A stretch of DNA of 60,213 nucleotides from an uncultured Desulfobacterium sp. (lineage in GTDB: Bacteria; Desulfobacterota; DSM-4660; Desulfatiglandales; Desulfatiglandaceae), in assembly GCA_900258555.1 (NCBI GenBank), contig LT984854.1:987071-1047283 (forward strand), read 5' to 3'. Below the pieces are notes generated by a model. The model had not been told where the DNA came from, did no database searches, and worked only from the letters and a program-made list of their open reading frames with translations. Below are positions 39,972 to 47,376 of this stretch, piece after piece (within the stretch, counting starts at the first letter, position 1; each line of letters begins with the position of its first letter). The position numbers and the translations under genes were made by a program.

Positions 39972-40973
39972 TCATTTTTCGCCCGTTGTTACAAGGGGAT
40001 TGTACGTGACCTCCCCGGAGGAATATCTCCCACACCTGTCGTTCCAGTATGATAAGAGGGCTCCATCCCTGTACAGCATCAGGACCGAGCAGGACTCTTC
40101 GCATTTTTTGCATACAAAGCTTTTGATCCTGTGCTCCTTTCCGGAGAGTTCAAGTCCTTGGAATGCGGGCTGTTCTGTTTTGACCATCGAGGCCAGAAGG
40201 GCTGCCCCGTACGCCCCGGCGACGCCGTAATAGGGAGAGACATGAATCTCGCATCCGGTCTGCTCCTGAAATTCCCGCACAATCCCCTTATTGGCCGCAA
40301 CCCCTCCCTGGAATACAACCGGCGGCGTTATTGGTTTCCCCCTTGCGACCGAGGCCAGATAATTTTTTACCAGGGCGCGGCACAGACCTGCCACAATGTC
40401 ATTCATGGGGGCGCCGATCTGCTGCTTGTGTATCATATCGGTTTCGGCGAATACCGTGCACCTGCCGGAAATTGATGCCGGATTATTGGATGACAGGGCG
40501 ATCTCTCCCATGTCTTCCACCCTTATTCCCAAACGCCCTGACTGTTGATCCAGAAAAGATCCTGTGCCGGCCGCGCAAACCGTGTTCATGGCAAAATCAA
40601 CGGCCATTCCATCCCTTACAATAATTATCTTCGAGTCCTGGCCCCCGATCTCTACGATAGTCCTGACCTCCGGCATGATTTTTACCGCCGCCAGGGTATG
40701 GGTGGTGATCTCATTTTTTATGATATTGGTGTTTATAAGGCGGCCAGCCAGGGTGCGGCCGCTCCCGGTTGTTGCAGCGGTCCGGACCACGGGAAGCGGT
40801 TGCCTATTGCTGAGGCGGATCATTGCAGCCCTCATGGAGGCCTGAGGATCGCCGTATGTACGCACGTAAAGGGAATCCAGCATGGAGAGGCTGTCCGCAT
40901 CAAGCACGACCATCTTCGTGCTCACTGAACCCACATCTATTCCTAGGAATATTTCATTTGATTTTGACGCCAT
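39972..40973 (-). CDS. Acyl-CoA dehydratase activase (BadF/HgdC-type ATPase)
   Basis: A 333-residue member of the ASKHA-fold activases. FLGIDVGSVSTKMVVLD is the phosphate-1 loop, IVEIGGQDSKIIIV the phosphate-2 loop, and two conserved Cys lie in AMNTVCAAGTGSFLDQQ and SGRCTVFAETDMIH, which hold the bridging [4Fe-4S] cluster of the homodimer. A C-terminal extension carries CKKCEESC, another metal-like set. These proteins use ATP to inject an electron into a dehydratase or ring-reductase. The two upstream genes encode HgdB-like partner proteins, coupled by overlaps of 20 and 4 bases, so this is one operon. Confidence 0.9.
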   Translation of the reverse strand: MASKSNEIFLGIDVGSVSTKMVVLDADSLSMLDSLYVRTYGDPQASMRAAMIRLSNRQPLPVVRTAATTGSGRTLAGRLINTNIIKNEITTHTLAAVKIMPEVRTIVEIGGQDSKIIIVRDGMAVDFAMNTVCAAGTGSFLDQQSGRLGIRVEDMGEIALSSNNPASISGRCTVFAETDMIHKQQIGAPMNDIVAGLCRALVKNYLASVARGKPITPPVVFQGGVAANKGIVREFQEQTGCEIHVSPYYGVAGAYGAALLASMVKTEQPAFQGLELSGKEHRIKSFVCKKCEESCSVLMLYRDGALLSYWNDRCGRYSSGEVTYNPLVTTGEK

Positions 40974-41868
40974 TTACAATATCCAGAAATGCCTCAAGCC
41001 TGGTGACCACATGGTCGCGCTGTGTGTGCTCGTCGCAGACCACGACCATATATGGCGGGGCATCTGCCATGCGTTTACGGAGTCCTGTCAGTTCCACCCT
41101 CATCAGTGCATCAATGCCGCAGTTGAAGGGGGCCAGGTGGATGATTCCGGCCGCAGGCCGTATCCGGGAAAAATAGATGAACGCCCCCAGGAGCTCGCGC
41201 GCCGACCGCCAATAGAGCCTTTTTGCATAATAGTCAAATGATGCTGCAAGGTTAGAAAGTTCATTAAAGTCAATCCACTGGGCGTAAACAATGTCAATCC
41301 CGTTCAGACGGAGTATATCGGGTACACCGTTGTTCAGACATGAATCCTCCAGGACATAGGGGTGCCCGATAAGGGCGATGGACTTGGACAGATCGCGGTC
41401 TTTCATCGCCATTGACTGACCATCGGCAGAAAAATTTTTTTCCCCGCAGCTCATCGGGTCTTTGCCGAACATATCCCGGTAAATTCCCGCTGCCAGTTTC
41501 TCCAGTTGATGACCCTGATCGATATCCACTACCGGTGTAAAGACATGTGTCTCTTTGTTCAGGCCGAGCCTGGCCCTATTCATCAGGACTATGTCCGGCA
41601 GGGCACGAAAATTGGGGCACACCAAAAATCCGTCCATGGCGATAATCCTGGGTGCGAGCAGGACATCAACATCGCTTAAAAGTGAAACAGATGACCTGAC
41701 CATCTGTTTGAACGGATAGCACGAGTCCGCATCAATGAGCAGTTGCTGCCCTGCTCCCGCAGAAGGGGCATGTATCCATTCAATTTCAGGGGCAAGCTGG
41801 CTCAGACGGCCCTTCAACTCCGACATCCACTCAAAAAAGAGCAGCTCCCCGGCCATTCCCACCTTCAT
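40954..41868 (-). CDS. HgdB-like (2-hydroxyacyl-CoA dehydratase-related) protein, short form
   Basis: A 304-residue protein of the group around 2-hydroxyglutaryl-CoA dehydratase and the activase-associated DUF2229 proteins. Cys residues that could bind an Fe-S cluster lie in DADSCYPFK, FLVCPNFR and APFNCGID. The C-terminus (RLEAFLDIVNG) resembles that of the next gene (QLEAFVDIMTW), indicating paralogy. It overlaps the activase gene by 20 bases and the next gene by 4. It should accept electrons from the activase. Substrate unknown; no CoA-ligase or CoA-transferase lies nearby to suggest a dehydratase pathway. Confidence 0.75.
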   Translation of the reverse strand: MKVGMAGELLFFEWMSELKGRLSQLAPEIEWIHAPSAGAGQQLLIDADSCYPFKQMVRSSVSLLSDVDVLLAPRIIAMDGFLVCPNFRALPDIVLMNRARLGLNKETHVFTPVVDIDQGHQLEKLAAGIYRDMFGKDPMSCGEKNFSADGQSMAMKDRDLSKSIALIGHPYVLEDSCLNNGVPDILRLNGIDIVYAQWIDFNELSNLAASFDYYAKRLYWRSARELLGAFIYFSRIRPAAGIIHLAPFNCGIDALMRVELTGLRKRMADAPPYMVVVCDEHTQRDHVVTRLEAFLDIVNGVKIK

Positions 41869-42986
41869 AATATGCGGCCCTGCCTGCGCCAGGTCATTAT
41901 GTCCACAAAGGCCTCCAGTTGGGTGTCTATCCTGAGACCCATATCCTGCCTGTCAATTACAACAGGTAGTACGGGGATGTTCAGGTCCTTGCTGACAGAG
42001 CAAAGCACTGTTGCGGCATTGGTCTCAGGCATGCAGGAAAACGGATAAACATGCACCACACCATCATAACCCTGGCGGTGCCCCAGCACTGTCTCGGCCA
42101 CGGAAAAATTGCATTCCGCGCCCACATCATAGTTGAGATAAGGCCTTGCCATATCCATAAGCCTTTGTCTGTCTTTTAACATGCGCCTGTCAAGCCTGGA
42201 ACCTCTTCTTATGTGTGTGCTGAAGTATGACGACCTGTGGACGACCACCCCAAGGCGGCCAAGGCGTCTTTCTACGTCCATATTGATGGATGGCTCCATC
42301 ACCGTATATACCTCGCCCACCATCATGACCTTGAGTGGAGTTCGTTCAGTTTTTTGCACTCCCTCAATAGAGGCAATCGCCTCATTTCCCGCCACCGAAA
42401 GGGACCTCACCCCCTGTGCCTTGTCAATAGCGACAAGGCCCTGTGACAGCAGCCGATCCACCTCCGCCGGGTTTTTTGCAATGGCACGGATTTGTGCGGC
42501 AGTTCTTTCCAGATGTTCGCACCATATCATCTTCTTCCATCCCATGACCATGGCCCAGGGGAATCGAAAATAGTTGCCCGCCGTGAGTTCCCTGCGCAGG
42601 ACCTTTGCCTCCTCGCGGTTCTGCAACAGGGCCTGCCAGTTAAAGATCCCGGGGATGGTAAGCCACCTGAATGAATATCCCATGTCGGTCAGGACAACCT
42701 TTATAATCCTGTCATATAGCCCGAGGCGGCAGGGAGGTCCGCTTCCCACCATGACAATGGTGTCAGCCCCCTGATCCAGGGCATCCACGAAATTACCTAA
42801 AATGATCTTCAGGGGAAGACACACAGACTCATTTGTGCTGTATTCGCCGATCTCACGGGTGTGGTTGGAGGTGGGCCTTGGAAGCACATAGGGGATACCC
42901 GCTGTCTCGGCCATGGCCTTGCAGAAGATATACATGCTGCCCAGGTGGGGAAATGTGACCTTCATGATGAAGATATTTACAGACAT
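41865..42986 (-). CDS. HgdB-like (2-hydroxyacyl-CoA dehydratase-related) protein, long form
   Basis: A 373-residue paralogue of the preceding protein. Likely cluster-binding Cys residues lie in NESVCLPLK, SGPPCRLGLY and YPFSCMPE, the same order as in double-cubane-cluster and HgdB proteins. The first seven residues are uncertain; an in-frame ATG lies at 42965. It is the first gene of the operon: the 304-residue protein, then the activase, follow. Related activase-driven proteins reduce or dehydrate difficult substrates at low potential. Their presence next to the LpxL and radical SAM genes suggests a reductive step on an acyl chain (inference), though an unrelated role is equally possible. 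Confidence 0.75.
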   Translation of the reverse strand: MSVNIFIMKVTFPHLGSMYIFCKAMAETAGIPYVLPRPTSNHTREIGEYSTNESVCLPLKIILGNFVDALDQGADTIVMVGSGPPCRLGLYDRIIKVVLTDMGYSFRWLTIPGIFNWQALLQNREEAKVLRRELTAGNYFRFPWAMVMGWKKMIWCEHLERTAAQIRAIAKNPAEVDRLLSQGLVAIDKAQGVRSLSVAGNEAIASIEGVQKTERTPLKVMMVGEVYTVMEPSINMDVERRLGRLGVVVHRSSYFSTHIRRGSRLDRRMLKDRQRLMDMARPYLNYDVGAECNFSVAETVLGHRQGYDGVVHVYPFSCMPETNAATVLCSVSKDLNIPVLPVVIDRQDMGLRIDTQLEAFVDIMTWRRQGRIL

Positions 42987-43063
42987 GAGGCAAAGGAAGC
43001 AAAGAAAATAAATTGTTAGTCAGGAGCCAGGAGCCACAATTCAGGAATCAGAATAAAAAGCAC

Positions 43064-43337
43064 GTAACTTCTCAATAAGTCGTGGTAGCCGTGGCAGGGC
43101 AGGGGGCTTTTTTCATGTTTGCATATTTGTGAGTCACTCCGATCAATCCGGCGGCTTTAAACGCAACTCTATCTCAGCAAGTTCAATGAGGTATCATCCG
43201 CGCAAAGATAGCCTTTTCCGACTGTGCGGCGATTGAAATCATGTTTAGGCGCTATTCTCAACTGCTGTAATTGGTGATGCAAACATGAAAAAAGCCCCCT
43301 GCCCTGCCACGGCTACCACGACTTATTGAGAAGTTAC
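43064..43337. repeat. Long-stem element 1: perfect 61-bp inverted repeat with a 152-base loop
   Basis: The arms 43064-43124 and 43277-43337 are exact reverse complements over 61 bases, ending inward in GTTTGCAT / ATGCAAAC. The loop (43125-43276) begins ATTTGTGAGTCACTC and ends ATTGGTG. The same loop ends and several inner blocks (CTCAGCAAG, CGGCGATTGAAATCATG) occur in element 2 in the opposite orientation. No gene lies inside. It could be a mobile hairpin element or encode a structured RNA. Confidence 0.85.
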
Positions 43338-43445
43338 AAAAGCACCTGCTAAGCCTTTGATCACGAACAAGTTGACATCCTTTGCCATTAAAATTAGATT
43401 TTCTTCCGATTGATTGGAAATTATCGGGGTAATTTCTCAAAATGC

Positions 43446-43679
43446 CGGGTATTGGGCAGGCCAAAGGGGCATTTTCTCTGTTTGCATCACCAATGACAAC
43501 AGATGCTAAAGCCGCTACCCATGATTTCAATCGCCGTAAGGCGGAGAAGACCATTATTGCGCGTCAGCTAAACGCATTGACCTTGCTGAGGAAGAGGTGC
43601 GCATAGCGCCGCCGTATGTTCAGAGTGACTCTCAAATATGCAAACAGAGAAAATGCCCCTTTGGCCTGCCCAATACCCG
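43446..43679. repeat. Long-stem element 2: perfect 42-bp inverted repeat with a 150-base loop
   Basis: The arms 43446-43487 and 43638-43679 are exact reverse complements over 42 bases and also end inward in GTTTGCAT / ATGCAAAC, but the outer arm sequence differs from element 1. On the minus strand the loop begins ATTTGAGAGTCACTC and ends ATTGGTG and matches element 1 in separate blocks. The right arm ends 30 bases before the start of the LpxL-like gene and could influence its expression. Confidence 0.85.
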
Positions 43680-43708
43680 ATCTTTTTGACAACCGACACG
43701 GAGGAAAA

Positions 43709-46986: not shown

Positions 46987-47103
46987 AGGATAACATTTTA
47001 CTAATAAGTGCATTGTCATTTAGACATAGATTGTGCAAAAAAGTCATTTTTCCCGTGTTTTATTTAAAAAGTTGTCTAAGAAATTATGACCTCATTAGTA
47101 ATT

Positions 47104-47351
47104 TTTTCAAAATGAGGAGGCCGCGGGGCTGTCAAGTGAAAGATCTGCATATGCTTACCTCATTCCATAGAGACGGCGGCTTGAGTGTTAAACTCTCCGT
47201 CAGTCCGCCCCATTAGGCTGGTGCTTAATCTTTGCCTTCTTTCCGCCTTTATCCAACCACTTGCGCCTGCTTGAGGAGGTTATGAAACTAGCGTAGAGGT
47301 GGTGATGCAGATTCTTCACTTAACAGCCTCGTGGCCTATCCATTTTGAAAA
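47104..47351. repeat. Long-stem element 3: imperfect 47-bp inverted repeat with a 154-base loop
   Basis: The arms 47104-47150 and 47305-47351 pair at 39 of 47 positions; several mismatches are G/T pairs that an RNA stem would tolerate. The arms end inward in CTGCAT / ATGCAG, and the loop ends GGTG, as in elements 1 and 2. The loop is more diverged but keeps ACGGCGGCTT. It fills the gap between the FabD-like and FabZ genes. Confidence 0.75.
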
Positions 47352-47376
47352 GACTAAAATGTTGGTGAGGTAATAT

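Follow-up and report, generated by a model that had tools for sequence, protein, structure and literature searches.

The two opposed hairpins at positions 43064-43679 of the window (the whole stretch of 60,213 nucleotides that was analyzed) are probably two inserted copies of a non-autonomous DNA transposon (MITE). In all likelihood, MITEs with IS66-type ends carry one conserved module across many genera of the order, and the stem of this module is kept nearly perfect. Here it is the core that is conserved and the TIRs that change, and this suggests that the cargo has a function. MITE cores are commonly seen as dispensable filler between TIRs.

Three Copies in the Window

The features of the window are as follows (module scores are from a covariance model of the module, R1).

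43056..43063, no strand: left 8-bp target duplication of element 1, AAAAGCAC (from the sequence and the duplication statistics of 18 copies)
43064..43337, minus strand (module orientation): element 1, a probable MITE of 274 bp with the ends GTAAC...GTTAC
43064..43124, no strand: left arm of element 1, 61 nt, consisting of the outer TIR GTAACTTCTCAATAAGTC and the inner module stem
43105..43296, minus strand: conserved module of element 1 (R1, 56.4 bits)
43277..43337, no strand: right arm of element 1, 61 nt
43338..43345, no strand: right 8-bp target duplication of element 1, AAAAGCAC (from the sequence)
~43429..43697, plus strand: element 2, a probable MITE of ~269 bp with decayed ends (the same site is empty in genome G001)
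43446..43487, no strand: left perfect arm of element 2, 42 nt
43468..43657, plus strand: conserved module of element 2 (R1, 45.6 bits)
43638..43679, no strand: right perfect arm of element 2, 42 nt
47088..47367 (ends approximate), minus strand: third, older copy with another TIR type (~CAACATTTTAGTCTTTTCAAAATGG)
47131..47324, minus strand: conserved module of the third copy (R1, 45.6 bits, E 1.2e-10)

A reading made from the sequence only had described two opposed elements with complementary arms of 61 and 42 bases and loops of 152 and 150 bases, and they were measured as such. The arms of element 1 are 100% complementary over 61 nt with a spacing of 152 nt. Those of element 2 (43439-43487 and 43638-43686) match at 94% over 49 nt, contain the perfect 42-nt part and are 150 nt apart. 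The loops are homologous when one is reversed, as had been claimed, and form the inverted pairs I3-I6 with 79-85% identity. Compared with shuffled sequences, the folding energies gave z = -16.3 for element 1 and z = -11.4 for element 2. The outer arms differ between the two copies, as had been noticed, but they are not unrelated: the outer ends of both elements are of one type, GTAACTTCTCAATAAG / GTAATTTCTCAAAATG, and both are versions of GTAACTTCTCAATAAG. The limits of 43064-43679 given earlier hold on the left side, where element 1 occupies 43064-43337; however, element 2 runs further, over ~43429-43697. The third copy is diverged; it was missed by BLAST and was found with R1.

Two observations concern the surroundings. 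The stretch GTTAGTCAGGAGCCAGGAGCCACAATTCAGGAATCAG at 43017-43059 has matches at several places in G001, a genome of the same genus, and is a separate small repeat. At 40954-42986, there are two neighboring minus-strand genes, each with a match to DUF2229 (CoA enzyme activase domain), and a BcrAD/BadFG ATPase gene adjoins them.

Copies, Target Duplications and Empty Sites

The genome of the window contains at least 22 related copies with GTAAC... TIRs, 15 of which were found by BLAST with the core and seven of which form subfamily B. A genome search with the loop alone had been suggested together with the first description of the hairpins. All 15 copies lie at separate places and possess inverted arms; 14 copies have arms of at least 49 nt, and L016, which is truncated, has arms of only 21 nt. 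The subfamily B elements (~275-286 bp) were found by the outer arm; their inner arm is a different one, and the homology of their core is distant. Further module copies beyond these two sets were detected by the covariance model. The measured size of the MITEs is 251-292 bp. A loop without complementary arms elsewhere, which had been named as an outcome that would refute the sequence-only reading, was not seen apart from L016 and the half copy L024. L024 (G000:C1:530090) is a decayed remnant, of which nothing is left but the end of one inner arm and the beginning of the core. For the solo TIR matches L037, L044, L045, L050, L055, and L060 of the same genome, a partner arm or core was not found.

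The copies have TIRs and a target duplication of fixed size (8 bp), carry no transposase gene inside, and are multi-copy and intergenic, as are MITEs. No clear gene-orientation preference of the copies was observed. In the 18 scorable copies, the 8-bp direct repeats outside the GTAA ends match at 92 of 144 positions, against 45 ± 6.4 expected by permutation (20,000 permutations, maximum 72). The 8-bp duplications of the copies in G045 match at 114 of 152 positions (48 ± 6.6 by permutation). Empty insertion sites, which had been proposed as a check, were found in a relative: in G001, the orthologous site of element 2 is empty, and copy L046, whose duplication is ATGAAAAC, is absent. The flanks of element 1 are split over two G001 contigs with other neighbors, where an empty site is not scorable. 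The mobility of the elements is well supported. The sequence-only reading had seen no known hairpin family; this was wrong or incomplete, as the elements are MITEs with 8-bp duplications and IS66-type ends. It had also seen no transposase nearby; for a MITE, the transposase need not be close.

ERIC, Correia, and REPIN are multi-copy intergenic imperfect palindromes that are foldable in transcripts. By description, they differ from the present module, which has a core of 150-160 nt and interchangeable outer TIRs. Prokaryotic MITEs, such as Chunjie of Geobacter and QMITE of Coxiella (reviewed in PMC10969869), are, like the present elements, short, non-coding, intergenic, and hairpin-forming, with TIRs and direct repeats; they are mobilized in trans, as is probable for the elements here. 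In contrast to them, the core described here is conserved across genera and is common to elements with unrelated TIRs, and arms of 50-65 bp are kept matched.

The Candidate Transposition System

The IS66 family produces 8-bp direct repeats and has inverted repeats of 20-30 bp starting with GTAAGCG (PMC11946415). The TIRs here begin with GTAAC or GTAAG and continue with CTTCTCAATAAG, unlike the published GTAAGCG start, in which GCG follows. In a relative (G022, locus L106), an IS66 transposase (PF03050, 1.6e-13) is enclosed by inverted copies of GTAAGTTCTCAAAAAGTTCGGG at a distance of 1788 bp; these ends are identical over 22 bp, and a clear duplication is absent. In the genome of the window, no IS was found whose end is exactly GTAACTTCTCAATAAG. 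This genome possesses an intact IS66 of 1986 bp (G000:C3 786944-788929; L064:2445-4430) with the ends GTAACAGTTTAGTCC and a perfect 8-bp duplication, GTCAGTCC. Its ends are similar to the third copy's TIR, not to the ends of elements 1 and 2.

The GTAA start of the inverted repeats together with the 8-bp duplication indicates IS66. Adding the transposase between the same ends in the relative, IS66-type transposition is the best-supported mover, and it is highly probable that it moved these very copies. Since the ends of the intact IS66 are unlike those of elements 1 and 2, mobilization by IS66 is likely, rather than proven, for these two. An IS66-family transposase encoded elsewhere would act on the MITEs in trans. 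The MITEs differ from the IS66 family in having no transposase inside and in the combined length of TIR and stem, which far exceeds 20-30 bp.

The Module Is Conserved While the TIRs Are Exchanged

The module is a stem of 30-35 bp that closes a core of 150-160 nt, is nested inside the TIRs, and measures ~220 nt overall. The covariance model, which had been recommended earlier, was built, and R1 detected the module in 29 of the 85 genomes of the order, representing 19 of 47 genera and two families. Among 395 genomes of the phylum, it was also detected in one distant genome (G348). The R1 matches are nearly always 190-200 nt long. An origin from a phage or plasmid was rejected: BLAST against both gave no match, and none of the eight pattern matches on viral contigs contains the module by the model. 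One pattern match among genome contigs, in an Erysipelotrichaceae MAG, likewise lacks the module by the model.

One and the same core is flanked by TIRs of at least four types, and a given TIR type also encloses other cores. The pattern GTAAYTTCTCAAWAAGTCCGGG was found in 31 of the 46 genomes of the family, with up to 183-186 matches per genome against 0-1 control matches. Elements of the GTAAYTTCTCAAWAAGTCCGGG type are mostly without the present core; G021 has 183 TIR matches and six core matches, and the core is missing from TIR elements of 101-217 bp. The TIRs flanking the module vary by genus: GTAACTTCTCAATAAG in the elements described above, GTAACACTTTAGC with 8-bp duplications in G045, and others in G036, G071, and G053. 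In G022, the module TIR is CAGCAATTCTAATTATG, and the duplications are of 9 bp (three copies scored). The module has long persisted through replacement of the outer TIRs, and an independent role is therefore probable.

In G021-G023 and G042-G044, the GTAAYTTCTCAAWAAGTCCGGG repeats are very dense (at most 186 per genome), and include 102-bp elements whose left and right ends differ. In G059, an inserted GC-rich sequence, tens of bases long (GGGGCGTAGGCCCTATGGGCC...), separates conserved core blocks in the copies L119, L129, L137, and L144.

Structure of the Core

A protein-coding core was rejected: no open frame is shared, and none is open in more than seven of 27 diverse rows. A search of ten representatives against 4227 Rfam families (E up to 1) gave no match, and a known RNA family was ruled out on this ground. 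Like Rfam RNA families, the module has conserved blocks and a covarying helix and is limited to one lineage, but it matches none of the families searched. RNAalifold gave little conserved fold beyond the terminal stem, and thus a conserved fold throughout the core was also rejected.

In an alignment of 20 sequences, changes on both sides were found at 12 of 19 pairs of the terminal stem, a covariation that by itself cannot separate RNA selection from DNA homogenization. Beyond the palindromic arms, covariation is present in one helix only, GGCAG/CTGCC, with the variants GGCGG/CCGCC and GGCAC/GTGCC. In 58 rows, 99.7% of its cells are paired, a value to be read with the fact that the helix is built into R1, so that the R1-fitted alignment leans that way. 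Sliding controls were at most 75% paired, and double changes occur in 11 cells. This helix also has the support of a MAFFT alignment made separately from 27 rows. A second helix, GCCCC/GGGGC, is nearly invariant and thus weak evidence; the distant genome G348 has a matching variant pair there, GACCCC/GGGGTC. It would cross GGCAG/CTGCC, and this crossing arrangement is only suggested.

The covarying internal helix suggests a structured core, and a functional folded core has roughly an even chance of being correct. We prefer the idea that the module acts as a folded RNA, or as a folded single strand, during transcription or replication. On a wider and more tentative reading, which we hold to be possible but doubtful, the module would be an independent inherited genetic entity: a folded RNA, possibly with the crossing helices GCCCC/GGGGC and GGCAG/CTGCC, that rides different transposon chassis, exchanges TIRs belonging to two or more transposition systems (duplications of 8 bp and of 9 bp), is kept by selection on RNA function, and has its stem perfected by template switching.

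Lockstep Change of the Arms

In subfamily A, the divergence between copies is 0.276 in the arms and 0.279 in the core, and the arms still match within copies. Among close copies in five genomes, 30 paired arm changes were observed, against ~0.6 expected under independent mutation. Transversions account for five of the 15 distinct paired changes. The arm mismatches in subfamily A comprise 13 G-U and 17 A-C, with no G-U bias on either strand. In the five genomes, they comprise 25 G-U and 14 A-C, counts in which repeated events are not collapsed and single events recur in several copies. According to the author's tally of 12 copies with recognizable duplications, decay is ~8% in the arms and ~18% in the duplications.

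Template switching is known to homogenize hairpin arms and can maintain hairpins, and inversion of the spacer is possible (PMC8794818, PMC8604942). During replication, a mutation in one arm would thereby be copied into its partner, and both arms would change in lockstep. Lockstep change at a neutral-like rate without wobble intermediates fits template switching between the arms. The sequence-only reading had left a choice between selection for a stem and a copying mechanism that regenerates the palindrome. Copying is the better supported of the two, by the equal rates, the excess of paired changes, and the mismatch types, and compensatory selection alone fits less well. Thus, homogenization at the DNA level is favored over ordinary RNA compensation, although both may act, and template switching is a rather probable cause of the arm matching. 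In the hairpins of these papers, one arm is copied from the other and the spacer can be inverted; the present arms differ in being long, ~150 nt apart, and inside a mobile element, and the mechanism is inferred here.

The other explanations were weighed against the same data. If the elements were functional non-coding RNA genes, compensatory selection at the RNA level would keep the stem, and mobility would be a side effect. The both-side changes in the stem, the covarying internal helix, the constant length of ~190-200 nt, and the core without a shared open frame agree with this, but the arms change at the rate of the core, and the five transversions among 15 paired changes require a non-wobble intermediate. 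In addition, the G-U to A-C ratios of 13:17 and, with repeated events uncollapsed, 25:14 do not favor it, and dozens of copies per genome with 8-bp duplications and empty sites are marks of mobile DNA. We consider this explanation rather unlikely. A somewhat lower probability is given to an ordinary IS-derived MITE, whose core is inherited filler and whose arms match since every copy is young. Every MITE hallmark is indeed present, and matched arms are natural in young copies. However, the mean difference between cores within the same genome is ~28%, and their arms, although just as diverged, are matched; the duplications are more decayed than the arms (~18% and ~8% in the 12 copies), and the core persists over 19 genera while the TIRs differ.

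The palindromic symmetry, and mismatches without a clear strand bias, agree with a signal at the DNA level, for example a protein-binding, replication, or recombination site that needs a cruciform. The asymmetric conserved core and the oriented internal helix are unexpected for a simple palindromic site, and we regard this explanation as improbable. Assemblies can generate perfect inverted arms, and an inverted duplication at a contig join had been named earlier as a possible source of the hairpins. The copies occupy distinct loci whose flanks differ, they show duplications and empty sites, and the module is present in many independent assemblies; the artefact is thereby refuted, and its remaining probability is negligible.

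The many copies with matched arms, whose ages can be gauged by the decay of the duplications, form a natural data set on an open question, namely whether perfect stems are maintained by compensatory selection or by template switching in one step. In one copy, L111 (G022:C15:8249-8487), the arms are as in L112 and the core is partly inverted; spacer inversion by template switching could give such an arrangement.
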